Shown here piece by piece: positions 6,751 to 34,962 of a stretch of 42,201 nt of DNA. Every line of letters starts with the position of its first letter. The first letter of the stretch is position 1. The notes below the pieces were generated by a model. It did not search any database, was not told where the DNA came from, and saw only the letters and a list, made by a program, of their open reading frames with translations. A program made the position numbers and the translations under genes. This DNA is from Clostridia bacterium. GTDB taxonomy: Bacteria > Bacillota > Clostridia > Oscillospirales > Acutalibacteraceae. The stretch is taken from positions 1-42,201 of the forward strand of contig JAFQBE010000006.1 in NCBI GenBank assembly GCA_017416765.1, in the 5' to 3' direction.

Positions 6751-6919
6751 ATATATCGTTGGCTATGTCTTTTTATTCTGAGTATACTTATGTTCTGACA
6801 AAATAATTTAAAAAAACCATAAAAACAAGAAAAGTTTGCACTAAAGTAAAAACAGAGATTATATAAAACTGGTCAGCTTATATAATTCCAAAATTAAACC
6901 TGTGTTAGGTGAGGAGAAG

Positions 6920-7471
6920 ATGAAAACTCTCAGTAAAAAGAGGATTGAGCTTTTCCTTGATTCAATATCGGAAAATTATTGCGAAACTGTGCTGAAGGAC
7001 TGTTATGTTCTCCTGAAAAAGATGTATACCTATTACTCTAAACCCAACGGACCGGAATTCAATATAATGAATAAGGTTAAATGTTCTCAATCACAAAAGG
7101 AAAAGAAAGAGAAAAGGGGGTACACGCCTGAAGAACTCAAAAGAATTTTCGCTGTTGCAGACAGCATTAACCCTGAAACAAACAGACCGAAATATATGTA
7201 CGGTAACGCAGTTAAGCTTCTGTTGCATACAGAAATAACTCTGCTCATAAATGCGTTTAGACGATATGAGTTTGATTTAACCGCTGCCAAGTCAGAAATT
7301 ACTGTTATTGAGTTTGCTGCTGCCGATGAAAAATGGCTTGATTTTATATGTAATAACCGTAGTGGTAAACCTACAGGTGATTATGATACTCAGATACTTT
7401 TGAATACACAGATTCGAGCAACAAGTTCATTGAAAATTAATTGGTTATTGTATATTCTATTGAATTGTTAA
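6920..7471 (+). pseudogene. Degenerate tyrosine recombinase (integrase) fragment
   Basis: A 183-codon frame whose first ~115 residues resemble the core-binding domain and the start of the catalytic domain of phage/ICE integrases (KRGYTPEELKRIF, YMYGNAVKLLLHT). The conserved catalytic block TGMRxGE expected next reads TEITLLINAF, so the first catalytic Arg is lost. The R-K-H-R-H-Y set is otherwise absent. The frame continues with unrelated residues and overlaps the last 35 bases of the convergent sigma-factor gene. ATG 6920 follows a GGTGAGGAG ribosome site; GTG 6902 is an alternative. It is best read as the scar of a former integrated element. Confidence 0.62.
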
Positions 7472-9203
7472 TCGCAAATTTATGGGCAGTCGAACCTTCT
7501 GAACAGATAATTGTCAGTGAATCACAACCACTGAATGCATCATCTGCGATATTTGTTACCGAAGGGGGGATGGTTATTGTTTTAAGTGCGGTGCAATTTG
7601 CAAACGCTTCATCGCTGATTGTTGTTACTGAATCAGGAACGTTTATCGAACTGAGGTTTGAACAGCCGTAGAATGCACCAATACCGATTTGTTTAAGTGA
7701 AGAAGGAAGCGAAATTGTAGAAAGAGATGTACAGTCCGCAAAAGCCTCTTGGCCTATCTGTGTAACAGTATCAGGCAGTGAAACGGATGATATATTTGTG
7801 TTGCCCTGAAATGCACCTACACCTATTGCGGTAACGGTATTACCGCCGATTGTGGACGGAATGCTGACGCTTTTGTTGCTGCCATTATACTCTGTTATTA
7901 CTCCCGAAGCACTTGAATAATTATTTTCAGGGTTTGTTGTAGGCGGTTGTGTGGTGAGTTGTGTTATGCTTTGAGTTGTGGCTTCCGTTGCAAGTTGTGT
8001 TGTACTTTGAGTTTGGGGTTGTGTTACAACGGTGGTTGGTGCTTGAGTAGTAGGGTATGATGTGGTTTCCGGCGGTTTCTGAGTTGTTGTAGCTGTAGTT
8101 TGCTTTGCTTGTGATTCTGTAAAGGCTGTTGTTAGATTACTGTTCGAGGAAGCTATTTGTGTGACGACTTGTGAAGTTGGATGTATGCTTGATGTACTTT
8201 GCACGGTGCTGCTTTCGGTATTTGATTCTTCTGAAAGACTTTCTGCGCTGTAGCTTTGGGTTGTTGCGCCTGTTACTACTTCCTCGCTTTCAACTGAATA
8301 CTCGATTGTCTGTTCGCTTTGCTTTTCAATTTGCTTTTTGATTACCGCCGTACCACCGACAGCTAAAGAACCTGCGACTATAACAGCAGCTGCCTTTGCA
8401 ACAATTGCTGTGGTAGTTGTTGCTGTGGCTGCGGCGGCAGAAATTGTTGTTCCTGTGGTTGCAGCAGCTGTGGCGGCTGTTGCACCGGCAGTTGTTGAAG
8501 CGGTTGCACCGATCGCTGATCCTGCCGTTATTGCGGCTGCTGATGACATAGCCGCAGGCAAAGTAATGTTTTGTGCCTGATTTGTGAGAACAGAAAGTAA
8601 AACCGGAATTGCGCCGATGCTGTAAAGCGTAGGGTCTTTTTTTCGGAGTTTTTCAAACTGCTTTTCAATTTTCTTTCTGCCGTTGTGCAGTCTGCTTTTT
8701 ACTGTGCCGACGGGTATGTTCAGTATTTCGGAAATTTCGTTCAGGCTCTTGTCTTCATAGTGAAAAAGCACTATACACGCACGTGTTTCAGGTGAAAGGG
8801 TGTTGAGAATTTCTGTTACACTGTTTCGGAGGTCTTCACGTTCCATAATCTCTTGCGGAACGGGTTCAGCGATTTCTTTTGAAGTTTCTTCTGCTTTTCT
8901 GTTCAGTAAAACGATTGGTGCGATAAGTCGTTTTTCTTTTCTTATATAGTTCTTACATTCGTTTTCTACAATTGATTTTAACCAACTTTCAAAGCTCTCG
9001 GGTTTTTTTAGCTCCGAGAGCTTTTCTGCTGCTTTGATGTAAGCGTTTTGAAGAACATCATCTGCATCACTTGGATTTGAAAGTATTAGATTTGCCGTGC
9101 GGTAGGCGATTTTGGCGGTTGCACGGTATAGCTCTTCAAATGCAGCGTTGTCTCCGTTTACCGCTTGCATTACAAGCTCTGCGTAGTTTTTGGTTTCTTT
9201 CAT
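7437..9203 (-). CDS. ECF sigma factor fused to a membrane-anchored LRR domain
   Basis: A 588-residue chimera. Residues about 14-90 are sigma-70 region 2 (ILSNPSDADDVLQNAYIKA) and about 125-185 region 4 (IPVGTVKSRLHNGRKKIEKQ), a complete ECF sigma factor. Residues about 190-285 are Ala/Thr/Gly-rich and end in a hydrophobic segment (AAAVIVAGSLAVGG) followed by lysines. Residues 290-425 form a Thr/Ser/Gln/Pro-rich stalk, and residues about 430-585 carry BspA-type leucine-rich repeats (IGVGAFQGNTNISSVSLP style). The likely topology is sigma inside and LRR outside, making a single-protein envelope sensor. The start is firm: CGGAG lies 8 bases before the ATG at 9203. No separate anti-sigma gene adjoins. 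It is transcribed away from the structured RNA and the cohesin operon, whose promoter looks ECF-dependent. Confidence 0.86.
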   Translation of the reverse strand: MKETKNYAELVMQAVNGDNAAFEELYRATAKIAYRTANLILSNPSDADDVLQNAYIKAAEKLSELKKPESFESWLKSIVENECKNYIRKEKRLIAPIVLLNRKAEETSKEIAEPVPQEIMEREDLRNSVTEILNTLSPETRACIVLFHYEDKSLNEISEILNIPVGTVKSRLHNGRKKIEKQFEKLRKKDPTLYSIGAIPVLLSVLTNQAQNITLPAAMSSAAAITAGSAIGATASTTAGATAATAAATTGTTISAAAATATTTTAIVAKAAAVIVAGSLAVGGTAVIKKQIEKQSEQTIEYSVESEEVVTGATTQSYSAESLSEESNTESSTVQSTSSIHPTSQVVTQIASSNSNLTTAFTESQAKQTTATTTQKPPETTSYPTTQAPTTVVTQPQTQSTTQLATEATTQSITQLTTQPPTTNPENNYSSASGVITEYNGSNKSVSIPSTIGGNTVTAIGVGAFQGNTNISSVSLPDTVTQIGQEAFADCTSLSTISLPSSLKQIGIGAFYGCSNLSSINVPDSVTTISDEAFANCTALKTITIPPSVTNIADDAFSGCDSLTIICSEGSTAHKFAINNSIEYTITN

Positions 9204-9696: not shown

Positions 9697-10392
9697 ATGA
9701 AAAAAACATTATCAATCATTTTAACTGTTACCTTTTTATTCCTGTCTGTTTGCTGTGCCGCTGCACAGAGCAGCGAAAACCGTGTTTCTGCCGAAAACAT
9801 AAATACTGCTCCAGGCGATTATGTTACTGTGCCTATATATATTGAACATAATACCGGATTTATGGGTTTTAGCATTACCATTACGTACCCGCAGGAAGAG
9901 CTTATGCCGGTTTCGGTTGAAAAGGGAAGTGCTTTGTCCGGCATATTTAATGACAGTATTTCTACATCTTCTGATAACAGTTTTAAGGTACTGTATACCG
10001 GAACAGGAGATATTACTGAGGACTGTTGTTTGTTCAGTGTAACATTCAAGGTAGCTGAAAATGCTGCTGACAGACAGAATAGGATAGTGTTGAGCTATTC
10101 ACAGCCTGATACCTTCCGTGAAGGTTGGAAGGATGTTGAACTTTCGTGTACGGATTTTTACATAAACGTTGTAAATGAGCAATCTACTTGTGTAACCGAT
10201 ACTACTTCACCTGACGATGATACTGAAAGCACAACATCTCCGGAAAACAATCCTTCTGAGCAGCCCGGTTCAGATGTTTCTAAGCTTTCTGTTCGTATGA
10301 GAAATTGGGTAAACTCTCTTGCTTTCCCGTTAAATATTTTGGTAGGTATTTTTGTAATTCCCGTTTCTTATGTAATTTCGATATTCGAATAA
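9697..10392 (+). CDS. Single-cohesin surface protein
   Basis: A 231-residue exported protein. The signal peptide (about residues 1-24) is followed by one cohesin-like domain (about 28-165): RVSAENINTAPGDYVTVPI, GFMGFSITITYP, LYTGTGD, LFSVTFKV, SQPDTFREGWKDV. Cohesins are the receptors for dockerin modules. A Thr/Ser/Asp/Pro linker (166-200) leads to a hydrophobic C-terminus (about 205-231, FPLNILVGIFVIPVSYVI) that probably anchors it in the membrane. ACGGAGA precedes ATG 9697. It is the first gene of the operon behind the ECF-type promoter and is followed directly by a second cohesin gene and a dockerin protein, its likely partner. No sortase motif is present. Confidence 0.84.
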   Translation: MKKTLSIILTVTFLFLSVCCAAAQSSENRVSAENINTAPGDYVTVPIYIEHNTGFMGFSITITYPQEELMPVSVEKGSALSGIFNDSISTSSDNSFKVLYTGTGDITEDCCLFSVTFKVAENAADRQNRIVLSYSQPDTFREGWKDVELSCTDFYINVVNEQSTCVTDTTSPDDDTESTTSPENNPSEQPGSDVSKLSVRMRNWVNSLAFPLNILVGIFVIPVSYVISIFE

Positions 10393-10393
10393 G

Positions 10394-11539
10394 GTGGTGG
10401 TCGAGATAAAAAAACATAGAATTATAGTTTTGCTGCTTTTTTGCTTTTTTTGGTGTTTGATATTAGCAATGAATGTTTGTGCTGTTAAAGTTTCGGCAGA
10501 TACAATTACTGCTAAATCAGGTGAAAACATTATTATTCCTGTTGAAATTTACGGCAACAGCGGAATAATGGGATTTAAAATTAATGTAAAATATGACGCT
10601 TCGGTTTTGAGTTCCCCTTTGGTTCATAGAGGTAAAATAACCAACCAGGGTTTGCTTAACGACAGTATAGGTGTGAGCGACGAAGGAAGCTTTGATGTTT
10701 TGTGGAGCAATACCGAGAATGTTTTGGTTGACGGAACGCTTTTTTTGCTCAGCTTTAAAATTAATGAAACAAAAGCCGCCAAAACTGTTATAAAGCTTAG
10801 CTGCAGTCAGCCCGATACCTTCAATGAGGCTTGGGAGGATGTAACGCTCGATTTAAAAGAAATTGAAGTAAATATTGTTTCTGAGCCGTTATCTGAAAAA
10901 TCTTCTGAAGGATATAAAGAGGATGCAGGCGTTGACACTGAAGATATAAAATCAGCTGTAGAAATTGCGCTTGGAGAATTAGAAAAAAATAATACTAATG
11001 GTATGAACGATAGTGAAAAAACACAGCTTGTTGACCGCACGAACGAAATAATATTTCAGCTAAGCGGAAGTAAGAATGCTTTCAGTGATTTTGAGTCGTT
11101 GAATAGTGCATACCGTGATTCTGTGAAGCAGGAATATGTGAATGAAATTTTGTCGGCAGTTGACAGTGATAAAATTGATTCTGCAATTAACAGTGCTCTT
11201 GATCGTTTCGGTAAAGAAACAATTGAAGAACTTGAGCCTGATGAAAAAGGAGAGTTTGCAAAGCTTGTAGGAAATGAACTTAAGTTGATAGCAGGGGATG
11301 TGGATGCGGTTTACGATAAGCTGTCTGACTATGAGGCCGCTGAAGCAATAAAGCAGCTGCAGGAAGAAAACAGCGAAGCGGCAACACAGGGAATAAAGCT
11401 TCCTGAAGCAAAGCAAAATGTCAATACGGTAAAGATGATTATATTTGCGTCTACTACGGCGGTTGTGATTATAATTGTTGCTACCGTTTTATATAAACGA
11501 AAAAAATACGGAGGTAAAACCAATGAAAACAATATTTAA
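10394..11539 (+). CDS. Membrane-anchored single-cohesin protein with helical stalk
   Basis: An exported protein of about 381 residues. After an N-terminal hydrophobic signal come one cohesin-like domain (about residues 32-168: VKVSADTITAKSGENIIIPV, GIMGFKINVKYD, SQPDTFNEAWEDV) and a helical, highly charged region (about 180-335). A transmembrane helix (about 346-366) follows, with a lysine-rich cytoplasmic tail (YKRKKYGG). The topology displays the cohesin outside the cell. The start is unclear. GTG 10394 follows the upstream TAA (10390-10392) after one base and lacks its own Shine-Dalgarno; AAGGTGG at 10391-10397 is instead spaced for an ATA at 10406. Termination-reinitiation coupling is the simplest reading. 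The 3' end overlaps the next gene by 17 bases. Confidence 0.84.
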   Translation: MVVEIKKHRIIVLLLFCFFWCLILAMNVCAVKVSADTITAKSGENIIIPVEIYGNSGIMGFKINVKYDASVLSSPLVHRGKITNQGLLNDSIGVSDEGSFDVLWSNTENVLVDGTLFLLSFKINETKAAKTVIKLSCSQPDTFNEAWEDVTLDLKEIEVNIVSEPLSEKSSEGYKEDAGVDTEDIKSAVEIALGELEKNNTNGMNDSEKTQLVDRTNEIIFQLSGSKNAFSDFESLNSAYRDSVKQEYVNEILSAVDSDKIDSAINSALDRFGKETIEELEPDEKGEFAKLVGNELKLIAGDVDAVYDKLSDYEAAEAIKQLQEENSEAATQGIKLPEAKQNVNTVKMIIFASTTAVVIIIVATVLYKRKKYGGKTNENNI

Positions 11540-14500
11540 GCGTATATTTGCAGCGGTGCTTGTGGCATTTATGCTCTTTGGCTCAGCGCCCGGTGAAGCA
11601 TTCACAGGTATATCCTCGCTGTTCAGTATTGAAGCAGAAGCGGCGGATCTTGCTGATCCTGTCTTTCCAGTTGCTAATACATCTAATCTTTATGTAATTA
11701 CATACGGCGGCGAATCGTGGTATTATTCACAAGGACGAGAAGATTTTACGGGTGGTCATTATGGTACAGATTATCGTGCTGTTGATATAAGCGGAACCGG
11801 TGCAACACGAGGAACAGCGGTTCGTGCAATAGATGACGGTGTCGTTGTACGTGTCAGAGGTACAGATGGCTCAGTTTATATCAGACATACACGAACATTA
11901 AAATTGTATGATAATAGCCATGCGTATTCAGAATGGTATACTATAAGTGCGCATATGCAGAACATTTCCGTAAAAACCGGTGACAGAGTATCAAGAGGTC
12001 AGAAAATTGGTGAAGTAGGAAACACTGGAACCAGTGCAATACATTTGCATTTTTCTATAACAACAAAGCTTTATAATGGAAATGACGGCTTCCACTATGG
12101 CTTCAATTATCCCGGTGCAAAAAATGAACAAACATTGAAACAGTATTCTAATTATACGATTTCCCCTATGTGGATTAACGATACTTATCGTTCTGTATAT
12201 TATCGTGCGTATACCAATAACAGTGCTCATGCTTCTGCTCTGAGAAGAATAACAGGAGGTACTGAAAATGCACCTGCAAGTACAGCAGAAATAGTTACAA
12301 AACCTGCTGCCCCTTCAATATCTGCCGACAAGACGGGTAATATTCCGTTGAACAGCAAGATCACATATAAGTGGAACGCTGTTTCAAACGCTACCGGATA
12401 CAAGGTTTATCTTGACGGTGAGTTGATTGAAAACATAGGGAATAAAACTTCTTATGTAATGGATGCTGTTTATCACGGTACATATAATTTTTCCGTTAAG
12501 GCTTACAATTCTAAATATGAAAGTAATTTTTCAAACACTGTTACTTCCCAAACCCGTGTGCCGAGCAAGGTAACCTTTGTCGATTGGGACGGTACGGTTA
12601 TCGATAGCCCCAGATATGTTGAATTCGGCAGCAATGCAATAGCTCCCGATATTCCTGAACGTGAGGGTTACACCTTTGCAGGATGGGATAAGTCATTAAA
12701 CAAAATTACTGAAGATACCGTAATTACAGCAACATATAAAATCAATAAATATAAAATTAAATTCCTTGATTATGAAGGAAATGTTGTTTCTACACAGACG
12801 GTTGAATATATGAAAGATGCTGTTGCACCGTCAAGCCCTGCAACGCCTACAGGTTACGAGTTCTTCGGTTGGGACAGCGAAAAATATTTATCCGTTAAAG
12901 AAGACGCTACAATCAGGGGCATTTATGCATGGGGTAATGACGAGCTTCCGATTGTTGCCGAAATAACTACAGCCAAACGTCAGGAAGACGGATATTATGT
13001 TTACTTTGATTTGACTAATTATCCCGATTCAACAACAAGAGGACGCGCAATAGTTTCTCTCAAAACTGCGGAAGGCAAGCTTGTTGATACCACCGAATCG
13101 GCGGCATTCAGTATTCCTGCCAGCGGTGAAAAAACGGGTATGGAAGTGTTTATTCCGTGCGAGTATTCTGCATCAACTGTTGAACTTATAATTGTTGACA
13201 GCTTTTCCTCAGGTGTTCCGATTTCAAAATCAGTAAGCATTGAGGTTGATCAGGCACTCGAGTGGAGCGACTGGTCTGATGAAGCACCTGAAGAGGGTAC
13301 ATATACCGATTTGGAAACACGCACTGTTTATAGATACAGGGATAAGGAATTTACTACAGCAAATACCTCCTCACTTTCCGGTTGGTCTCGAACCAACGAT
13401 ACACCTACATGGAAATGGAGCAGTTACGGTAATTGGAGCAGTTGGTCTAAAACAAAAGTTACATCAAGTGATTACAGAAAGGTTGAAACCAAAACCGTAA
13501 CCGATCAAGCCGGTTATACACAGTATCGTTATTGGAGATACATAAACAGTACTAATGGTAATTTAGGCAGTTATACTTTTGGTACATATGGCTGGGCAGG
13601 CGTTTGTTATAATTATCAGGAAATCTATTTAAACTATGCGTTGAGTTTAAAAGATTCTGCAAACGGTTTGTATGGTGAGGCGTTATACAACGGCGGTTTC
13701 CGAGCAGCAAGAAACGGTTGGTTTTTCGGTGAATCAACGTGGATTCCTGCCGTAACTCATACAGAGTACAGATACGCCGACAGAACTAAAATTTACACAT
13801 ACTATTTCTACAGATGGCTTGACTGGTCTGATTGGAGCGCTTCTGCTGTTGAGGCGACAGATAACCGTCAGGTTGAAAGCAAAACTCAGTACAGATTCCG
13901 CAACGAGTTTGGCGATGCGGGTATTGAAGACAACAGTGGTTCACTGATTAATGTTGATTACACTGTTGATTCATCACTTGGCGGTAAGCAGGCAACTGTA
14001 TTCGTTCACAAGTATAATGAGGCTTCAGACTGGACATGTGAACATGTTAAGCAGTTTGAAATACCTGCAGACGGCGATATCAGCTTTAGTTTCAAGCCTC
14101 GAGAAGAACTTTCTGCTGTAACAGGAGATTATACTGTATCTTTAGGTATTGAAGGCAATACAAACACAATAATTATAAAGACAATTGAAGCGCCAAAGCC
14201 CGAATATACCGTAACATTCCGTGATTGGGACGGTACTATTATCGACACACAGACTGTTGAACAGGGCAAAACAGCAGCGTATCCCGAAAATAGCCCCGAA
14301 AGAGAAGGATACGATTTCGTAGGCTGGAGTTCAACACTTACAAACATTAACGCAGATGTTGAAATCGAAGCACGCTATGTTATAAAAACTTATGATGTCA
14401 TTTTTGTTGATTGGACAGCTAAAAGTATTGTAACAAAAACCTTTGAGCATGGCGAGTTCCTTACTCCGCCTGAAGCAACAACGGTTGAAGGTTACAATTT

Positions 14501-16769
14501 TGTCGGCTGGAGTGGTGTGACAGAGGGCGAAACAGTTGTAACAGAAGATATGATTGTTACGGCAGATTATGATGCTGAAATATATGAAGTCAACATCTAT
14601 GACTTTGATATGAATGTTATCGGTACACAGACGGTTGAACATGGAAGTTTTGTTGACCTTCCTGATGAAATTGAGAAATCAAAGTATATTTTCCTTGGTT
14701 GGAAATCCGCAAATGATAACAGCACAGTCAGCGCAGTAACCGGTGATATGGATGTGTACCCGGTATACATTTTCACTGAAACTACGGAAAGTCCCACAGC
14801 TTCACTTGATTCAGGTGTATATAAAGAAAATCAGACACTTGAGCTCAGCTGTCCTACAGAGTCGTCTGTTATTCACTACACAACTGATGGCACAAATCCT
14901 CTTGATTCTTTGACCGCAAAGCTTTATGAAGAGCCGATTGTGCTTGATAGAAGCATGGAAATAAAGTTTGTAGCAAGCACGTTTGAAATGAATGACAGTG
15001 ATGTTGTAACTCGAGTTTATGCAATTAACAGCGGCGAAGGCACGAGCGACTGGATGCAGTTGAACGATGTGCCGGATTATGTGCTTGGAAATATGGCTGA
15101 TTATTCTGTACAACAGGATACAGGCTACCGTTACAAGGATGTGATTGTTACTTCGTCAACTTCCGAAATTGCTGCTCTTGAAGCAAGCGGATGGAGTAAT
15201 GAGGGCTATGAATACGGCAATCAAAGCGAGTGGGTGCTTGAAAAGCCTGTGCTTGAAGATGTCGAATATGAAATTATTGAACAGAAACCGCCTCAGGTTG
15301 AAGAAACACATTATCAATATACTCATTATAAGTATTACGATGATGCTTCGGGCAAATATATCTTTAGCGCTACCGAGGTTGATGGTGCAGAAGGTGAGTG
15401 GGAAACATACACCTCTCCTGTTCGTCTTACGGTAAGCGGCTTTGTTAGCGGAACAACAACAGCATATTATTTGTATAACGGTGAGGAATGGTATAACCAA
15501 AAGCCTGTTACTGTAATGGTTGACCCTGGTTATATGATGTACAGCTACAAGGTTAAAAATTATACCCTGACAAAATGGACAGCGTGGACTGTTGAAGCAC
15601 CCGCTGCTGATGAAGCACGAGAAATTCAGACTGATACTGTTTATTGCTACACAGCACCGGATATGTGCCTTGTAGAAATTGTTTCCGATTTTTATTCTTC
15701 AACTCAGCTTGGTATTGTGGGTAAAACGCTTGATGTTGATACAACACTTTTCACAATGGAAGGCTTTATCTTTGACGGATTCTACAAGGATGCTGAGTTT
15801 ACTGAAAAGTGGGATGTTGAAAATGATGTTTTAACTGGAAATGTTAAGCTTTATGCAAAAAATTCGCTTAAGTCTTATACTGTAAAATTCTGTGATGATA
15901 AAGGTAATGTTCTTGACACACAGACTGTCGAGCACGGCAGTGCTGCAACAGCTCCTGATGTTAAAATTGAAGACGGATATGTTCTTATAGGCTGGGATAC
16001 CGATGAATATCTGCGAGTTGAAAGAGATGTTACTGTTACAGCGGTTATTAAGGCTGAATCTGAAATAACTCAGGTAAAGCTTAACAGAAGTAAGTTTACC
16101 ACCACCGTGGGTTCGGCATTTTATCTCAATGCTACGGTTACACCCATTACTCTTGAAGACAAAGCTGTTACTTGGTCTTCAAGTGATTATTCAGTAGCAG
16201 AAGTTAACGATGAGGGTGTTGTTCTTGCTGTTTCTTTAGGTATAGCTACTATTACAGCAACAGCATTCGACGGAACAACTGCTTGCTGCTTTGTAACAGT
16301 AACAGGTAGTACAGACAGCGAGCTTTCACTTTCACTTTCAACAAGCCTTACAGTCGATGATTCCGGTTATTTGAGGAATATTCCGATAATTACTGATGAA
16401 ATTCTTGACACACATATTGCGGCAACAGCCGGTGAAATAAAAGCTCAGTTCATCAATACTGATATTGCTGTTGTTGACATTAACGGTAATGCTGTTTCTG
16501 ATAACGCACCGATAGGTACAGGCAGCAGGGTTATACTTATGGATGGTGAAAGCGTTGTTGACTCAATAACTGTTGTTATCACAGGCGATTATAACGGAGA
16601 CGGTTATATAAACAATCGTGATGCTTCAATGATAACTCGTTATCTTGTTGATAAGGAAAAAGCAGAACTTTATCAGATGCTTGCTATTGATGTTAATGGC
16701 GACGGCTATGTAAATAACCGTGATGCTTCAATGGTATCAAGATATCTTGTAGGCAAAGAAAAACTGTAA
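11523..16769 (+). CDS. Giant M23 peptidase with InlB-type repeats and C-terminal dockerin
   Basis: A 1748-residue exported protein. A signal peptide (about 1-40) precedes an M23/LytM zinc endopeptidase domain (about 60-190) with all key residues: HYGTD (His79, Asp83), His144 and HLH (His174, His176). M23 enzymes cut peptidoglycan cross-bridges. Then come a fibronectin-III-like domain (260-345), two InlB-type beta-grasp repeats (349-472), W-x-x-W-rich modules (578-793 and 1172-1379), three more InlB repeats (892-1089), a chitobiase-C-like domain (1089-1169), further InlB repeats (1379-1513) and a Big2-type Ig domain (1513-1596). The final 60 residues are a dockerin with two calcium loops (DYNGDGYINNRD, DVNGDGYVNNRD). 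ATG 11523 has the strong site ACGGAGGT and overlaps the preceding cohesin gene, so the two are translated together. Confidence 0.9.
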   Translation: MKTIFKRIFAAVLVAFMLFGSAPGEAFTGISSLFSIEAEAADLADPVFPVANTSNLYVITYGGESWYYSQGREDFTGGHYGTDYRAVDISGTGATRGTAVRAIDDGVVVRVRGTDGSVYIRHTRTLKLYDNSHAYSEWYTISAHMQNISVKTGDRVSRGQKIGEVGNTGTSAIHLHFSITTKLYNGNDGFHYGFNYPGAKNEQTLKQYSNYTISPMWINDTYRSVYYRAYTNNSAHASALRRITGGTENAPASTAEIVTKPAAPSISADKTGNIPLNSKITYKWNAVSNATGYKVYLDGELIENIGNKTSYVMDAVYHGTYNFSVKAYNSKYESNFSNTVTSQTRVPSKVTFVDWDGTVIDSPRYVEFGSNAIAPDIPEREGYTFAGWDKSLNKITEDTVITATYKINKYKIKFLDYEGNVVSTQTVEYMKDAVAPSSPATPTGYEFFGWDSEKYLSVKEDATIRGIYAWGNDELPIVAEITTAKRQEDGYYVYFDLTNYPDSTTRGRAIVSLKTAEGKLVDTTESAAFSIPASGEKTGMEVFIPCEYSASTVELIIVDSFSSGVPISKSVSIEVDQALEWSDWSDEAPEEGTYTDLETRTVYRYRDKEFTTANTSSLSGWSRTNDTPTWKWSSYGNWSSWSKTKVTSSDYRKVETKTVTDQAGYTQYRYWRYINSTNGNLGSYTFGTYGWAGVCYNYQEIYLNYALSLKDSANGLYGEALYNGGFRAARNGWFFGESTWIPAVTHTEYRYADRTKIYTYYFYRWLDWSDWSASAVEATDNRQVESKTQYRFRNEFGDAGIEDNSGSLINVDYTVDSSLGGKQATVFVHKYNEASDWTCEHVKQFEIPADGDISFSFKPREELSAVTGDYTVSLGIEGNTNTIIIKTIEAPKPEYTVTFRDWDGTIIDTQTVEQGKTAAYPENSPEREGYDFVGWSSTLTNINADVEIEARYVIKTYDVIFVDWTAKSIVTKTFEHGEFLTPPEATTVEGYNFVGWSGVTEGETVVTEDMIVTADYDAEIYEVNIYDFDMNVIGTQTVEHGSFVDLPDEIEKSKYIFLGWKSANDNSTVSAVTGDMDVYPVYIFTETTESPTASLDSGVYKENQTLELSCPTESSVIHYTTDGTNPLDSLTAKLYEEPIVLDRSMEIKFVASTFEMNDSDVVTRVYAINSGEGTSDWMQLNDVPDYVLGNMADYSVQQDTGYRYKDVIVTSSTSEIAALEASGWSNEGYEYGNQSEWVLEKPVLEDVEYEIIEQKPPQVEETHYQYTHYKYYDDASGKYIFSATEVDGAEGEWETYTSPVRLTVSGFVSGTTTAYYLYNGEEWYNQKPVTVMVDPGYMMYSYKVKNYTLTKWTAWTVEAPAADEAREIQTDTVYCYTAPDMCLVEIVSDFYSSTQLGIVGKTLDVDTTLFTMEGFIFDGFYKDAEFTEKWDVENDVLTGNVKLYAKNSLKSYTVKFCDDKGNVLDTQTVEHGSAATAPDVKIEDGYVLIGWDTDEYLRVERDVTVTAVIKAESEITQVKLNRSKFTTTVGSAFYLNATVTPITLEDKAVTWSSSDYSVAEVNDEGVVLAVSLGIATITATAFDGTTACCFVTVTGSTDSELSLSLSTSLTVDDSGYLRNIPIITDEILDTHIAATAGEIKAQFINTDIAVVDINGNAVSDNAPIGTGSRVILMDGESVVDSITVVITGDYNGDGYINNRDASMITRYLVDKEKAELYQMLAIDVNGDGYVNNRDASMVSRYLVGKEKL

Positions 16770-16777
16770 AATCAAAG

Positions 16778-16805
16778 TATCCGACGGGCTTTTGCCCGTC
16801 GGATA
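16778..16805 (+). terminator. Perfect hairpin between the dockerin and tri-cohesin genes
   Basis: TATCCGACGGGC (16778-16789), TTTT loop, GCCCGTCGGATA (16794-16805). There is no T-run after it, so it may attenuate or stabilise the upstream mRNA end rather than fully terminate. No separate promoter is visible before the next gene. Confidence 0.65.
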
Positions 16806-16831
16806 TGGATTTAGATTAGGTTGTGATGTAA

Positions 16832-18712
16832 TTGTTAAACAAGTTTAAGAAAATAATTGCATTGATTTTATCTGTGGTTATTGTTTTTACGGCTACAGTT
16901 ATTGCCAGTGCAAAAGCAACCCCCACTTTTTATATTGAACAGTGTGCAGCTGTTGCAGGCGAAACAATAGTTGTACCGGTTTGCATATCCAATAATCCGG
17001 GAATAATGGGCTTTTCTGTTGTTGTTGAATATGATTCTGATATTTTTACGCCCATTCAAACCATTGCTTTTGATATACTTTCAGCCGGAACACTTAATGA
17101 CAACATAGGAACTGGTAAGAAAAATATAGTAAAGACTGTTTTTACTGCTTCTGAAAATATATGTGGCGATGGTATCTTGTTCTTTATAGAGTTCAGCATA
17201 AGCGAATCTGCGCAAGGCAACTATGATTTTAAAATTTCATATTTACAGAGCGATACATTTAATGAAGATTGGGAAGATGTTATATTTGAGTGTATAAGCT
17301 CCACTACGAATATTATTAAAAGTGATGTAGAAAGCCCTGCTGTTTTTTCTGTCGAATCAGTTACAGGATATTGCGGCGATAAAGTGAGAGTAGCAATTAA
17401 CGCTGAAAATGCTCTTGGGGCAATGGATTTTACGCTTAAAATTGGTTTTGATAAATCAGTATTGGATTTAACTAAGGTTGAGGTGACTGATTCAACGGAT
17501 TCCGCAAACGGCACACACATTACAGACTATGCTTCGAATTATATTTCTTTTTCGTATTCTGGTGTAATCAGTGAAGAAGGACCGATTTATTATTTGAATT
17601 TTGACATACAGGGCTATGATGCGGGTGTGCAGGATATTACAATTTCGTGTGAAAAAATCAGTTTTATTGAAACTTTTGAAAAAGATGTTGTCTGTAAAAA
17701 CGGTATGGTTGAAATTGTAAATCCGTTTGAGAATGAATACTGTTATGCATATACGGTTGATGAGGTTGTTCTTAAAGAAAAGCAAATTGAAGTTCCAGTA
17801 AAGTTAATCAATAACAACGGCATAATGGGCTTTGGAATGAACATATATTTTGATAATTCCCTCGTAAAAGTTGTTGATGTGGTAAAGACAAAATCTCTTA
17901 ATAAAGGTAATTTCGATTACAGTGTATCGGTAATTTCTGATGGTGAAGAGTCTGCAGGAATGATAAATGTAGTATGGAATCACAGCGAAAATATGCTTGA
18001 TGACGGTGAAATCTTTTCAATAGTGTTTGAGCTTACCGGTGATGAAATACCTGATGAAATTCCTGTTGCTTTTGAAGTGCGTCAGGAAGATTCATACAAT
18101 GAAAACTGGGAAGATGTTTCAGTCGTATTTGATCCTCAGTTTTATATGATTTCTCTTTCATACATTCGTCTGAATGCATTTAAAACTCAGTTACATATAG
18201 GTGAAAAAACTTCTGTGTCCGGTGTTTGCAGATCGGGCGGTGAGGACATTGATGCTATGTTGTTTTCAACTAATCCTGCTGTAGCAAAGGTTGAAAGCGA
18301 CGGCACTATAATTGCAGTGGGCAGCGGAAGTGCAACTATAATTGGTCAGTCACTTGACGGAAAGCTGAGCGACAGCATTAAAATTAATGTCAGTGCTTCT
18401 CAACCTAATTTGAAAATATACAGCTTTAGTGATTCTTTTGATTTTAAGGTTAACCTGTTAAAAAAATATTCGTCTGCTACTATGAATTTAGGCTATAAAG
18501 TTCAAAATTGCGAAAAAGCTGTTAGCTTTAAGTGGTCATCTTCAAATAAAAAAGTAAAAATTGACCAAAATGGCAAGATTACCAATACAGGAAATTTTGC
18601 ACGATCTTCAACGATAACGCTTACGGCTTATGATGCACAGGGTAACGTCGTAGCAAAATCAAGTGTAAAAGTAAGATTTTTTAAATTAAAATGGCAGCTT
18701 AATAAGTCTTGA
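16832..18712 (+). CDS. Three-cohesin scaffold-like surface protein
   Basis: A 626-residue exported protein that starts at TTG 16832 behind an AGGTTGTGATG ribosome site. The signal peptide covers about residues 1-28. Cohesin-like domain 1 (28-160) and domain 3 (303-440) carry the local signature D-T/S-F/Y-N-E-x-W-E-D-V. Domain 2 (167-292) lacks it and is more diverged. A Big2-type Ig domain (443-523) and a second Ig-like domain (526-626, ending FFKLKWQL) complete the protein. There is no transmembrane segment and no dockerin, so attachment to the cell must be indirect or through the C-terminal domain. With three receptor modules it resembles a small scaffoldin able to gather several dockerin proteins, of which only one is in the window. 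Confidence 0.83.
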   Translation: MLNKFKKIIALILSVVIVFTATVIASAKATPTFYIEQCAAVAGETIVVPVCISNNPGIMGFSVVVEYDSDIFTPIQTIAFDILSAGTLNDNIGTGKKNIVKTVFTASENICGDGILFFIEFSISESAQGNYDFKISYLQSDTFNEDWEDVIFECISSTTNIIKSDVESPAVFSVESVTGYCGDKVRVAINAENALGAMDFTLKIGFDKSVLDLTKVEVTDSTDSANGTHITDYASNYISFSYSGVISEEGPIYYLNFDIQGYDAGVQDITISCEKISFIETFEKDVVCKNGMVEIVNPFENEYCYAYTVDEVVLKEKQIEVPVKLINNNGIMGFGMNIYFDNSLVKVVDVVKTKSLNKGNFDYSVSVISDGEESAGMINVVWNHSENMLDDGEIFSIVFELTGDEIPDEIPVAFEVRQEDSYNENWEDVSVVFDPQFYMISLSYIRLNAFKTQLHIGEKTSVSGVCRSGGEDIDAMLFSTNPAVAKVESDGTIIAVGSGSATIIGQSLDGKLSDSIKINVSASQPNLKIYSFSDSFDFKVNLLKKYSSATMNLGYKVQNCEKAVSFKWSSSNKKVKIDQNGKITNTGNFARSSTITLTAYDAQGNVVAKSSVKVRFFKLKWQLNKS

Positions 18713-18795: not shown

Positions 18796-21700
18796 TTGAA
18801 AAAATTAATTTTTCTGCTTCTTGCAGCTGTAATACTTTCGGGTCAGATAATTTTTTCTGAACCCGATTTTGCCTTTGTTTCTTCAGCTGCGGATAACAAA
18901 TGCGGCGACAATATTACCTGGTATGTTGATACACAGTCCGGTGTGCTGACACTTGAGGGGACAGGCAAAACTTACGATTATGCAGTCGGCAGCGCACCTT
19001 GGGACAAGTATTACAGCTACATAACAAGTGTTACAGTAGGCGAGGGCATAACCTACCTTATGGAGGGTACGCTTGACAAGCTTTATAATGTTCAGACATT
19101 AACACTTCCGTCAACTATCGAAGAAATACATACTCACGCTGAAATGTTTTCGCTTGAAAATATTATTTTCCCCGAGAAAACAGAGCTGCGGTATGTCTAT
19201 TATCAATTCGCTGACGAAAGTCCGTGGTATTTGAATCAACCTGACGGTTCGCTTATTTATTTCGGTTCTTTTTTGTTTGACATCAAGGGTGATTTGCCTG
19301 ATGATGTGACTTCACTTGAAATACGGGACGGTACTACCGCTATCGGCTGCCGTGCATTGAGTTATGAAACAAATCTTATCAATATATCATTTCCCGACAG
19401 CCTGAAATATCTTGGTGAGCACGCAGTTTATAAAACCGGTTGGTATGAGTCGCAGCCTGACGGTTGGGTTTATGCCGGTAAGGTTCTGCTTGGTTACAAG
19501 GGTGATATTCCCGATGTGAACTGTGTGTTGCGTGAGGATACTAAAGCTATAGCTGATTACGCTTTCTATAGTGATGATTATTTGGAAAGTATAGTTATAC
19601 CTGCTTCTCTTGAGGAGATTGGAAAAAGTGCTTTTAACAGCTGTCAGGAGCTTACAGAGGTTGTTTTTGAAGAAGATTCTTCATTGAGGGTTATTCACAG
19701 CAGCGCTTTTAATTATACAAGCCTCAGAGAATTTGATATTCCTGAAAGCGTTGTTAAAATCGGCAGTGACGCTTTTTCGGCAACGGATATAAGGTACATA
19801 TTAATTCCTGCTAACGTTCTAAGCTGTGACGGTGCGTTTACCGATATGGAAAACGCACGCAGTATTGATGTTTCTCCCGATAATCCAAACTATTGGTCAA
19901 ACAACAGCGGTATAGTTTTCAGTAAGGATAAATCCGTTTTGCACTTCTTTCCGGGTGACAGCTCAATGACCGAATATACCGTACCTGCAGGTACAAAGCA
20001 TATAGCTTACGCTGCTTTTTCAGGCACAAATCTGAAAAAAATTACTCTAAACGATGACCTTGAAACGGCAGGTGAGTATATTTTTTCGGGCAGCTATAAT
20101 CTATATAATATTAATTTAGGCTCAGGCTTGTCGGTAATTAATTCAAATATGCTGCGTGGGTCAAGCCTTAATTACAAGGAATTGGTTATTCCCGAAAACA
20201 TCAAGACGATAGAAAAAATGGCTTTTTCTGTAAGCTCGCTTAAGGATATATATTTCCTCACAAAGGATGCAACCTTTGCTCGTCAGAGCGTATACCATAC
20301 CGATAAGGTTGTTATTCATTGCTATGAGGGTTCAACGGCACAGCAATATGCTGAAGAATACGGCATACAGTATATACTTTTTGAAGACGAACCCTTTACG
20401 AGGATGCTGGAGGAGCTTATTTTTAAGGCAGAAGGGGTTTATCGTCCGAACTATTCTGAAAAAAGTCTTGCCGAGCTTGATGCGGCTGTTAATGCTGTTG
20501 ATTTGGATAAAGAGAATTTGACTCAACAGCAGGTTGATGAATGGTATAAAGCAATATCGGCTGCTCTTGACGGGCTTAGTGTCGGTGCGGCTGACTGTAC
20601 AGAGCTTGATAAAGCAATTAAAAAATCAGCTTCAGTCGATCGCAGTCTTTATACCGCCGAAAGCCTCGCAAGGCTTGATGCTGCACTTGCTGCGGTTAAT
20701 GGCGACCCGACCAAAGCAGAGCAAAGTCAGGTTGACGCTTGGGCACAGGCAATAGAAAAAGCACTTGCTTCTCTTGAGTATCTGCCTGCGGATTATTCTT
20801 CGGTTGAAGAAGCAGTACGTACTGCTTCTTCAATTGACAGGCGTTATTACTCAGATTACACACTTACCTTGCTTGATAATGCTGTGAAGGCTGTAATATA
20901 CGGACTTGATATTACGCAGCAGAATATTGTTGACGGGTATGCACAGGCAATAATGCTTGCGATTGGCAGATTGGAATACGCCGCCGTTGTTTTAAGGCAT
21001 GATGTATGCGGTGTTATAGTTTCTGCTACAACAAAAGAAATAAAACCCGATACATCGTTGTCTGTTGAAACGGTTGATCCCTCAAACTATGAGGGGACTA
21101 ATTTTGCCGTAGGCGGTTCAATACGAAGCTTGCATTTTTACGATATTAACTTAATTTATCAGAATAGTACCGTTCAGCCCGACGGAACGGTTAGCGTAAA
21201 AATTAAGTTGGCGGACGGTGTTGATCCTGCAAAATGCAAGGTATATCATGTTACGGACGATATAGTAAATCCTTTAGTGCGTTTTACCAGCACAATTGAC
21301 GGCAACTATATAACCTTTGAAACCGACCATTTCAGCGAATTTGCGGTTATTGAGGTTGAGCCGGTAGTAACGTCTATAGAAATTAAATCATTGCCTGCTA
21401 TAACTGAATATAATATAGGCGATTCGCTTGACCTGTCCGGTCTTAGTGTTGTGGCTTATTACAGCGATTCCTCTGTTAAGCAGATTGACGATTACAATGT
21501 CAGTATGACTGATATGTCATCTTTAGGCGTTAAAAAAGTTACGGTTTATTATACTTTTTCCGGTGTTACAAAAACAGCGGAATTTGAAATAACTGTTACC
21601 GATTCCGAGTGCTCGGCAGACATTTTGTTTGAATCAGTTTCCGTAGAACGGGTCAACAAAAAGATTGGCATTTTTCAGCTTTACACAAAGGCTTTCGTTA

Positions 21701-21969
21701 ATCTTGAATGTGTTACCAATAACATAGGGGAAAGCACAGTGCATTGGCGGTCTGATAATCCAAAGGTTAAGGTTGATTCAAACGGCAGGATAACCTGCAG
21801 TGGATTGTTCGGTGCAAAGTCCGCAAATATAACTGTTGAAATTTTGGATTCGGAAGGTAATATAGTAGCAACTGATACCGTTCAGGTTGTGTTTTATAAG
21901 CTGTCTTTTCAACTGTCCAAATTTGCGTCGCAGCTTTTCGGCAGAATTATGAATGCAATGATATTTTAA
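18796..21969 (+). CDS. Large LRR surface protein with FIVAR-like and Ig-like domains
   Basis: A 1057-residue exported protein with a TTG start preceded by GAGGTG at good spacing. The signal peptide (about 1-31) is followed by BspA-type leucine-rich repeats (36-526), usually involved in adhesion. Three helical FIVAR-like repeats follow (532-732; for example SVDRSLYTAESLARLDAALA). After these come a beta domain (735-855, ending HFSEFAVIEVE), a Big_3-like Ig domain (856-937, YNIGDSLDLSGLSVVAYYSD) and a C-terminal Ig-like domain (939-1057). The last domain closely resembles that of the tri-cohesin protein: both contain W-x-S-x-N-x-K-V-K and end F-x-K-L-x-x-Q-L. It has no dockerin, so membership in the cohesin complex is unproven; shared location and shared C-terminal domain suggest a common surface fate. 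Confidence 0.85.
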   Translation: MKKLIFLLLAAVILSGQIIFSEPDFAFVSSAADNKCGDNITWYVDTQSGVLTLEGTGKTYDYAVGSAPWDKYYSYITSVTVGEGITYLMEGTLDKLYNVQTLTLPSTIEEIHTHAEMFSLENIIFPEKTELRYVYYQFADESPWYLNQPDGSLIYFGSFLFDIKGDLPDDVTSLEIRDGTTAIGCRALSYETNLINISFPDSLKYLGEHAVYKTGWYESQPDGWVYAGKVLLGYKGDIPDVNCVLREDTKAIADYAFYSDDYLESIVIPASLEEIGKSAFNSCQELTEVVFEEDSSLRVIHSSAFNYTSLREFDIPESVVKIGSDAFSATDIRYILIPANVLSCDGAFTDMENARSIDVSPDNPNYWSNNSGIVFSKDKSVLHFFPGDSSMTEYTVPAGTKHIAYAAFSGTNLKKITLNDDLETAGEYIFSGSYNLYNINLGSGLSVINSNMLRGSSLNYKELVIPENIKTIEKMAFSVSSLKDIYFLTKDATFARQSVYHTDKVVIHCYEGSTAQQYAEEYGIQYILFEDEPFTRMLEELIFKAEGVYRPNYSEKSLAELDAAVNAVDLDKENLTQQQVDEWYKAISAALDGLSVGAADCTELDKAIKKSASVDRSLYTAESLARLDAALAAVNGDPTKAEQSQVDAWAQAIEKALASLEYLPADYSSVEEAVRTASSIDRRYYSDYTLTLLDNAVKAVIYGLDITQQNIVDGYAQAIMLAIGRLEYAAVVLRHDVCGVIVSATTKEIKPDTSLSVETVDPSNYEGTNFAVGGSIRSLHFYDINLIYQNSTVQPDGTVSVKIKLADGVDPAKCKVYHVTDDIVNPLVRFTSTIDGNYITFETDHFSEFAVIEVEPVVTSIEIKSLPAITEYNIGDSLDLSGLSVVAYYSDSSVKQIDDYNVSMTDMSSLGVKKVTVYYTFSGVTKTAEFEITVTDSECSADILFESVSVERVNKKIGIFQLYTKAFVNLECVTNNIGESTVHWRSDNPKVKVDSNGRITCSGLFGAKSANITVEILDSEGNIVATDTVQVVFYKLSFQLSKFASQLFGRIMNAMIF

Positions 21970-33900: not shown

Positions 33901-34962
33901 GTGTTCAAAAAAAGTATAGTTTTTTTACTTGTTTTAACTATGTTGCTTGGCTTGCCGTCAGTCGCATATGCCGAAGAATGTGTTCCCGAAAAGGAAGGTT
34001 ATGTGCTTGATTTCAGCACCGAATTTAATGATGGTAATTTAAATACAGAGTATTGGTTACCGCAGTATCTACCTCATTGTACTTCTAATATAGCTGGGTC
34101 CGCTGCAAGGTATAAAGTAGAGAACGGTTATCTGAATCTGTATATTACAAAAGATTCTCCTGATTATTTCGGCGGTCGGCCCGGTTCGGCAGATCCCGAT
34201 AATCTTTTATGGATAGCCAACGGTATTCAGACATGGGAAAAGAATCATCTGCATCCAGGTGGTAGTCAGCAGGTAGAAGTTGAGCCTTATGAAGGATACG
34301 CAACACAGTATGGCTATTTTGAAATACGGATGAAAATGCCTGATACCGGTGGTGGCGGATACGCTTCATGGTGGCTTATAGGCACTCAGGATGATGCAGC
34401 TCCTGACGGAACAGGTTCTGCTCAGAATGCCGAAATAGATGTCTTTGAAACCTTTTTTAAATCCCCGGGAGTGTTTGAACCTAAAGTCCATGCTTGGGAT
34501 GATCCAAATCTTGACGAATGGGCAAGCAGGGTCGAATTGGATGGCGACCCAAGTGACTATGTTAATGAATTTCACACTTATGCTATGGACTGGAGACCCG
34601 AAGGAATAACATTTTATGTTGACGGAAAAGAAGTGGCGCAGACGAGGGAATCACCGCAATACAGAATGTGCATGATTTTGTCTATGTATATAAACTCTGA
34701 TTTCAGCGGTTGGGATGAGCCCGAAAATAATTATCCCATAGAATGGCTGATTGATTATGTACGTGTCTATAAAGATAAAAACGGTTATGATGAGAGCAAC
34801 CGCCTTACTGAGTTTGAGCGTTTTATAAAAGATATGTACGACTCACTGACTGTATTCGGACAGCGTATTTTATCATTTTTTCAACACCTCTGTATGAAGT
34901 GTCGTCAGTTCATTGAGCATTTATTCAGTATTATTCCTGTTTTGTATACAGAACAACAATAA
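33901..34962 (+). CDS. Secreted GH16 endo-glycanase
   Basis: A 353-residue exported enzyme starting at GTG 33901 behind AAGGGTGA. The signal peptide covers about residues 1-23. The glycoside hydrolase family 16 domain (about 30-300) carries the E-I-D-V-F-E catalytic motif with nucleophile Glu178, Asp180 and acid/base Glu183. Other family marks are GYFEIRMKMPD, ASWWLIG, HTYAMDWRPEGITFYVDG and WLIDYVRVYKD. GH16 enzymes cut beta-glucans or sulfated and neutral galactans; the subfamily is not clear from reading. The final 50 residues form an amphipathic, cysteine-containing helix (IKDMYDSLTVFGQRIL onward) that may hold it at the surface. It lies close to sulfatases, which would suit a sulfated polysaccharide, but that link is conjecture. 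Confidence 0.9.
   Translation: MFKKSIVFLLVLTMLLGLPSVAYAEECVPEKEGYVLDFSTEFNDGNLNTEYWLPQYLPHCTSNIAGSAARYKVENGYLNLYITKDSPDYFGGRPGSADPDNLLWIANGIQTWEKNHLHPGGSQQVEVEPYEGYATQYGYFEIRMKMPDTGGGGYASWWLIGTQDDAAPDGTGSAQNAEIDVFETFFKSPGVFEPKVHAWDDPNLDEWASRVELDGDPSDYVNEFHTYAMDWRPEGITFYVDGKEVAQTRESPQYRMCMILSMYINSDFSGWDEPENNYPIEWLIDYVRVYKDKNGYDESNRLTEFERFIKDMYDSLTVFGQRILSFFQHLCMKCRQFIEHLFSIIPVLYTEQQ

Follow-up and report, generated by a model that had tools for sequence, protein, structure and literature searches.

A putative non-cellulosomal cohesin-dockerin module with exchangeable cell-wall-hydrolase heads in a family of Clostridia

Genes of the cohesin-dockerin locus

Four co-directional genes, cohA, cohB, a gene for a giant stalk-dockerin protein and a gene for a three-cohesin protein (the scaffoldin), lie at positions 9697-18712 on the + strand of the window, by which we mean the whole 42,201-nucleotide stretch analysed from contig JAFQBE010000006.1 of a Clostridia bacterium (assembly GCA_017416765.1). 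cohA and cohB are separated by 1 base pair (bp), cohB and the giant gene overlap by 17 bp, and 62 bp lie between the giant and scaffoldin genes. The gene coordinates agree with the open reading frame (ORF) list, all of the Pfam domains named in the initial annotation were recovered, and the Pfam matches in these genes all exceed the Pfam curated cut-offs.

CohA (9697..10392, +) consists of a signal peptide, one cohesin (approximately residues 28-161; Pfam Cohesin, E 8.4e-11), an acidic and Thr-rich linker and a hydrophobic C-terminus beginning at residue 203, while CohB (10394..11539, +) has a signal peptide, one cohesin (E 1.3e-9), a helical region of about 150 residues, a transmembrane helix and a Lys/Arg-rich tail. 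Hydrophobic segments were located by a simple hydropathy count with a threshold of 1.6, which the C-terminal stretch of CohB passes at 1.96 and that of CohA at 1.62, near the threshold. A PDB sequence search with CohA at 0.01 gave no relative. A single-sequence model of CohB, of modest confidence (mean predicted local distance difference test (pLDDT) 52), shows a cohesin followed by helices and the transmembrane helix, and cohesins rank first when this model is compared with the PDB (best 5lxv, E 4.9e-9). The initial annotation had described two membrane-anchored single-cohesin proteins, and this is borne out in that a Cohesin match above cut-off and a hydrophobic C-terminal segment are found in both; CohA and CohB are presumed to be membrane-anchored sockets. 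The scaffoldin (16832..18712, +; Pfam Cohesin, E 6.3e-18) does have the three cohesins attributed to it (16946-17236, 17345-17695 and 17780-18052), all above cut-off, though the middle one is divergent (24.5 bits against a Pfam cut-off of 24.1), followed by a C-terminal immunoglobulin-like part, and the hydropathy count shows no hydrophobic segment in it besides the signal peptide.

The ORF of the giant protein opens at TTG 11475, but GGAGGT stands ahead of ATG 11523 and, with the family alignment, ATG 11523 is most likely the start, giving a protein of 1748 amino acids (11523..16769, +). The overlap with cohB noted previously is thus real, with its extent reduced to the 17 bp given above because of this placing of the start. 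Pfam matches on 11475-16769 are Peptidase_M23 (2.9e-15), Flg_new (7 stretches), CHB_HEX_C_1, Big_2 and Dockerin_1 (2.8e-13). The N-terminal M23 peptidase head (11799..12065, +; PF01551, about 59.3-59.8 bits, residues 93-181 counted from ATG 11523) carries the full HxxxD / H / HxH set (HYGTD, AHM and HLHF) when aligned to lysostaphin-type and LytM PDB entries; modelled without an alignment it reaches a pLDDT of 36. The stalk (12303..16541, +) is made of Flg_new repeats of the InlB B-repeat type, a Trp/Tyr-rich region, CHB_HEX_C_1/Fn3_assoc and Big_2, and is followed by a type-I dockerin (16584..16748, +; PF00404, 57.8 bits) with two NNRD-containing calcium loops, DYNGDGYINNRD and DVNGDGYVNNRD, whose PF00404 score tops all 14 in the genome. 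The protein is therefore, as first described, a giant dockerin-bearing M23 peptidase with a complete active site.

A second set is present in the same genome on contig C10 (L019), where relatives of cohA (42% identical) and cohB (41%), a giant and a larger scaffoldin stand in the same gene order as in the window. The two giants are 43% identical over 1,514 columns, covering the signal peptide, stalk and dockerin and not the head, and the C10 cohB and giant genes overlap by 4 bp at the position corresponding to the window overlap.

The dockerins and cohesins of these two sets are of types distinct from others in the genome. On a giant-dockerin family profile the window and C10 dockerins score 133.9 and 130 bits and the other 12 dockerins of the genome 19.5-29.7, a gap which is partly built in because both giants are among the six training rows; that the giant dockerins have NNRD where the rest of the genome has DGEDA and others is a plain sequence difference. 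A system cohesin profile, whose training included both cohB cohesins and not the other window or C10 cohesins, gives 77-198 for the cohesins of the two sets, except for the middle cohesin of the window scaffoldin (15.5 bits, with its neighbours at 95 and 77), while 29 relatives' cohesin loci score at most 60, save G043's own set, and the cohesin on contig C3 of this genome scores 24.5. Counting only domains above 8 bits, the motif DTF[NDKR]E/DTYNE likewise turns up in no sets but those of the window, C10 and G043. The three-cohesin protein had been taken to imply more dockerin clients elsewhere, which was not upheld, as only the window and C10 giants carry this dockerin type, and therefore the cohesins of the locus may serve just these two clients.

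Cohesin-dockerin pairs are known mainly as joints of polysaccharide-degrading complexes. The initial annotation had proposed a non-cellulosomal use here, and a search of the whole genome (2.77 Mb, 98% complete) agrees with it, returning 14 dockerin and 10 cohesin matches and no dockerin-rich cellulosome. All 14 dockerin proteins were extracted and 13 were scanned with Pfam, the fourteenth being a 105-amino-acid dockerin-only protein; those scanned are the window M23 giant, the C10 giant, an S8 subtilase, LRR_5 proteins, a metallophosphoesterase-domain protein, Glug and Flg_new proteins, a 320-amino-acid cohesin-dockerin protein, a weak cohesin-dockerin protein, the C10 scaffoldin and one protein almost without Pfam matches. 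No glycoside hydrolase, lyase, esterase or carbohydrate-binding domain was found by Pfam in these 13, with the qualification that Pfam leaves large parts of several of them without a match. The GH16 gene within the window (33901-34962) is dockerin-free.

Recurrence of the gene set and variation of the heads

Counting the window and C10 sets, 15 intact stalk-dockerin sets were found in 13 genomes, all within the family of the window genome. A cohB-type gene lies adjacent to the giant gene or one gene away in all 15, and the C-terminal domain of CohB is present in every one; a neighbouring protein with at least two cohesins stands beside the giant in 14, the G303 locus being cut by a contig end. 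Recurrence at 15 of 15 intact homologous loci means that the gene arrangement of the window is not due to chance, and because the gene order varies (cohB-giant-scaffoldin, scaffoldin-giant-cohB or giant-scaffoldin-cohB), the co-occurrence is not merely that of one inherited array. The whole giants of five other loci are 29-43% identical to that of the window.

The set is sparsely distributed. A search for the giant in 200 family genomes, in which two candidates per genome were scored, gave matches in 59 at 1e-10, mostly to short or repeat stretches, and five full-length giants, one of which lies in two pieces. The CohB C-terminal domain was matched in 17 of 398 family genomes at 1e-5, strongly (at least 75 bits) in seven, the remaining ten (25-29 bits) matching only its last part with the transmembrane helix; seven genomes of the same genus are listed there, and just one of them (G000) has the domain. 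Across the order, 19 of 394 genomes matched, strongly only in G195, G030, G000 and G719, all of the same family, and so among the samples searched, which stayed within the order, the module is restricted to one family. Genus-wide searches around four matches added sets in G768, G772, G769 (two sets, a and b), G832 and G859 and fragments in G760, G851 and G840. The family profiles were trained on six loci, for which the scores are partly circular for that reason; the other nine intact loci were outside the training, and their CohB members match the family profile at E 2e-34 to 1e-55.

The giants keep their signal peptide, stalk and dockerin while the N-terminal head differs, the first 33 or so residues (the signal peptide) being similar in most. 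A cell-wall-hydrolase family was found above the Pfam cut-off in eight of the 15 heads, namely M23 in the window and G772, ELLD/Amidase_5/NlpC_P60 in G043, Phage_lysozyme2 with M23 in G120, and CHAP in G303, G719, G832 and G859. Three more heads were assigned by similarity only: the divergent C10 head matches PHROG endolysin 9066 (2.4e-11), and the G768 and G769a heads are 34-35% identical to a protein of G030 with an N-terminal CHAP match above cut-off. An SH3_3 domain follows the head in C10, G195, G303 and G719. Comparison of giants points to both change and persistence of heads. In G120 and G303, which belong to one genus, the stalks are 71% identical and the heads (lysozyme with M23 against CHAP with SH3) 23% and unrelated; G719 and G832 share both stalk (85%) and head (79%), and so heads also persist.

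The closest view of a head exchange comes from MT837133.1, a sequence from human faeces which equals the G043 locus apart from its head. The two are 97.6% identical over 6,484 bp upstream, a stretch that takes in the signal peptide and the scaffoldin gene in full, and 98.2% identical over 724 bp of stalk downstream; between these flanks lie 428 bp in MT837133.1 and 485 bp in G043 which are unrelated. In blocks of 60 bases, the eight inner blocks have 15-30 matches, the two at the boundaries 52 and 40, and those outside 56-60. The replacement head lies in an open frame and is an Amidase_6 (26.8 bits, cut-off 23.2) in place of the ELLD/NlpC type. A chimeric assembly is possible, but both of its junctions would have had to keep the reading frame and its insert to be, once again, a cell-wall-amidase head. 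A further record, MT839337.1 (4,365 bp, 97.9% identical), covers the end of the stalk, the dockerin and cohB of the G043 lineage and is perhaps from another strain than MT837133.1. Both records (L127 and L128) are filed as 'Bacteriophage sp.' and are the bacterial G043 locus over their full length except for the exchanged head.

Proposed role and alternative explanations

We favour, with confidence a little better than even, the reading that these genes form a non-cellulosomal cohesin-dockerin module which is dedicated to the display of exchangeable peptidoglycan hydrolases, has spread horizontally and is directed mainly at other bacteria. The giant would be secreted, and its C-terminal dockerin would plug into CohA, CohB and the multi-cohesin protein, the last of which could gather several giant copies; the earlier proposal of a cell-wall hydrolase docked on the cell's own surface is in this respect supported as a design predicted from the sequence. 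The repeat stalk of about 1,400 residues would carry the N-terminal cutter outward and, judging from its domain count, may reach past the cell wall. The head would act as a cassette, with M23 endopeptidase, NlpC/P60-type, CHAP or Amidase_6 and phage lysozyme enzymes replacing one another, and the main target would be the wall of other bacteria, attacked on contact for antagonism or lysed for food. Exchange of heads, the patchy distribution, low guanine-cytosine (GC) content in some loci (6-8.5 points below the flanks in four of the 12 measured) and the mobility genes beside others together fit an accessory weapon better than a housekeeping function. Relaxases or recombinases adjoin the G030, G195 and G043 loci, with relaxases at two of them (G195 and G030), serine recombinases at two, and ParA with a serine recombinase at G030, where element-like genes (identified by eye) also lie upstream. 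A bolder version, to which we would give somewhat less than an even chance, is that of a polymorphic antibacterial system with cohesin-dockerin docking as its platform, in which the producer bears long-armed lysins on its surface, whole heads are swapped by recombination between a conserved signal peptide and a conserved linker, and mobile elements spread the loci among gut Clostridia.

Several observations weigh against this proposal. Four of the 15 heads could be assigned to no family, namely G195 and G030 (C39_2 at E 0.025, below cut-off), G385, with Fn3-like Pfam matches only, and G769b, which was run against the CHAP and M23 profiles, both of which miss it, and against the other heads. 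The C10 head is not matched by the Pfam M23 profile and, by eye, has GNHIHMEI but carries Arg at the expected position of the first zinc-binding His; when the C10, G195 and G030 heads were searched against the PDB, no catalytic relative came up (a weak SH3 match for G195). The CHAP assignment of G768 and G769a is indirect since the CHAP profile at E <= 1 misses both heads, as does the M23 profile, and their head profile gives a weak NlpC-like hint against the PDB (E 0.41). Pfam Cohesin was returned for two of the eight CohB proteins scanned (window and G120); the cohesin of the C10 CohB was above cut-off in the genome search, and the other CohBs rest on family similarity. The best case of head exchange is one metagenomic contig filed as an unverified phage, and no gene-sized difference other than the head, such as an immunity gene changing with it, was seen in 7.2 kb between MT837133.1 and G043, a comparison of one pair in which MT837133.1 ends 724 bp downstream. 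The window block (38.9% GC) hardly departs from its flanks (39.9 and 41.4%) and so gives no sign of recent import, and the C10 block is higher in GC than its flanks (40.4% against 36.7%). An M23 enzyme as such is also ordinary here, as the genome has another four strong M23 frames that lack a dockerin.

Antagonism of other bacteria nevertheless seems more likely than self-remodelling. A docked autolysin, trimming or separating the producer's own wall and confined by its cohesin tether, would suit membrane-anchored cohesins and the failure to find an immunity gene linked to the head, and M23, NlpC and CHAP enzymes are, from knowledge of these families, often autolysins. We consider it unlikely, as the distribution is accessory (five of 200 family genomes, and one, G000, of the seven listed from the genus), near-identical loci differ in head where the wall is presumably unchanged, the dockerin-free M23 frames are available for housekeeping, and a stalk of this length would be hard to explain for an enzyme working in its own wall. 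More doubtful still is a variable surface antigen or adhesin, in which stalk and cohesins would serve as a scaffold for adhesion or biofilms and the head would vary under phage or host immune pressure, with enzymatic activity secondary or lost in some heads. InlB-type repeats, a BspA-type LRR protein near the window locus, the G385 head (and, on fewer tests, that of G769b) in which no enzyme was recognised, and the Arg replacing the first His in C10 would all be in keeping with this, but 11 of the 15 heads, eight above cut-off and three by similarity, are of cell-wall-hydrolase types with several unrelated folds and the M23 site of the window giant is complete.

The relaxases at G195 and G030, with the ParA, serine recombinase and element-like genes at the latter, might instead indicate a conjugation helper borne by integrative elements, whose hydrolase would open walls for mating. 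This is very improbable given that no homologs of those relaxases were found in the flanks retrieved for the other loci, and that no obvious mobile element is seen in the window. Least probable of all, in our view, are ordinary cellulosome or mucinolysome components, for which the cohesins, multi-cohesin scaffoldin, 14 genome dockerins and the frequency of cohesins among kin (61 of 97 relatives) would speak; we have set this explanation aside because of the 13 scanned dockerin proteins without a carbohydrate-active-enzyme domain, and this dockerin type was found on the two giants only. Two origins for the module were also considered and rejected: for a phage origin, four viral-contig scans with the family alignment and three giants gave no relative, and in the search for a plasmid origin the window giant gave partial matches below 60% identity in seven records and the G195 giant none at 1e-20. 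A scan of genome contigs gave a single match, of 35% over 75 residues, which we take to be due to chance.

Known systems and neighbouring genes

The proposed antibacterial module has partial counterparts among known systems. Lysostaphin-type M23 bacteriolysins and phage endolysins share its catalytic head families and SH3 domains but are, to our knowledge, freely secreted or phage-borne and have no dockerin, stalk or cohesin partner. Among the nearest published relatives is RflaF_05439 of Ruminococcus flavefaciens FD-1, an NlpC/P60-like tandem with an X-dockerin which interacts with the cell-surface cohesin ScaE, given there as unpublished results (PMC3573020; PMC5301203). It is alike in having a C-terminal dockerin on a cell-wall-hydrolase fold, a surface cohesin and a proposed non-carbohydrate role, but it is part of a large cellulosome system in which ScaE is sortase-linked, whereas the window sockets are predicted to be transmembrane, and a long repeat stalk, a dedicated cohesin operon and head exchange are not described in the passages compared. 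Dockerin-borne peptidases have been described (PMC2930009), and dockerin-bearing cell-wall hydrolases have been named a 'lyticome', with lysozyme activity reported in the R. champanellensis cellulosome (PMC6403190, which cites Morais 2016 and Bensoussan 2017); in the text compared this is a possible concept beyond the cellulosome, while the gene module of the window stands by itself in a genome whose dockerin proteins, where scanned, showed no carbohydrate-active enzyme. The Limousia mucinolysome (PMC12997984) is also a cohesin-dockerin complex resembling a cellulosome, and some of its dockerin-bearing proteins are peptidases, but it is, as there described, built on mucin-degrading glycoside hydrolases, none of which were found on dockerins in the window genome. 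Polymorphic toxin systems (PMC3482391) join a variable toxin domain that recombines to an unchanging chassis, a likeness which is found here. The variable domain of such systems is C-terminal and that of the giants N-terminal, and no immunity gene was found travelling with the head in the one pair of loci compared.

The surface-docked dockerin-NlpC/P60 protein and the 'lyticome' idea are therefore already published, and a search of the open literature by title and abstract, with most subscription papers outside its scope, gave no description of this module. Its interest lies in a whole module, with its own dockerin and cohesin types, seemingly devoted to displaying peptidoglycan hydrolases; the changing of heads on an unvarying chassis points to an evolutionary arms race, and the loci supply several lysin folds already fused by nature to a single arm. 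The 'lyticome' idea is directly testable in such a genome, which also cautions that cohesins and dockerins need not signify fibre degradation.

Divergent from cohA in the window, 7437..9203 (- strand) encodes, by Pfam, a sigma-70-family factor resembling the extracytoplasmic function (ECF) type, with a hydrophobic segment at residue 263, a Ser/Thr-rich linker and LRR_5, and it is possible that this is a regulator, a membrane-tethered sigma factor with an outside sensor. The C10 set is adjoined by a LytTR response regulator and a presumed kinase (the kinase by eye). Between the giant and scaffoldin genes of the window lies a 12-bp hairpin (16778..16805) with a weak T run on the + strand, listed by the terminator scan as terminator-like on the - strand, which could be an attenuator or an RNA-stabilising stem. 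The LRR_5/Big_3 surface protein of BspA type mentioned above (18796..21969, +; Pfam) begins 83 bp downstream of the scaffoldin and is possibly on the same transcript. At 6902-7471 (+), next to a gene for a ResIII/DEAD helicase (4079-6703), DUF3990 is matched weakly and below cut-off.

In G768 and one G769 set (L142 and L145) cohB is adjoined by a gene for a zinc-ribbon, hydrophobic, Ser/Thr-rich protein with a leucine-rich-repeat-like end (by eye), accompanied by a Ser/Thr kinase which also occurs at G772, G859 and the broken G851 locus. The kinase is small and of Hanks type and, together with a protein of about 145 amino acids, is conserved beside four intact loci and one broken one (L142:2225-4096, L145:680-2578, L143:89-1239, L148:14321-15495 and L149:7534-10374); these conserved neighbours had been considered as candidate immunity genes and proved to be this pair, which is not obvious immunity.

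Other cohesin-dockerin combinations occur in these genomes. On contig C22 of G030 a single protein (L151:8097-14105, -) joins a cohesin and a dockerin to repeats and a CHAP-type head; its neighbour, a cohesin-dockerin protein, ends in a nearly identical dockerin, and a relaxase homolog and an integrase-like gene (by eye) lie nearby. In the window genome, the 105-amino-acid dockerin-only protein (L022:3599-3916, -) is secreted and encoded upstream of secE/nusG-like genes (by eye), and the 320-amino-acid protein of contig C3 (L021:4119-5081, -) has a single cohesin and a dockerin. Cohesin frames of 310-324 amino acids are found in six of ten other same-genus genomes and probably represent another, distinct cohesin-dockerin system in the genus.

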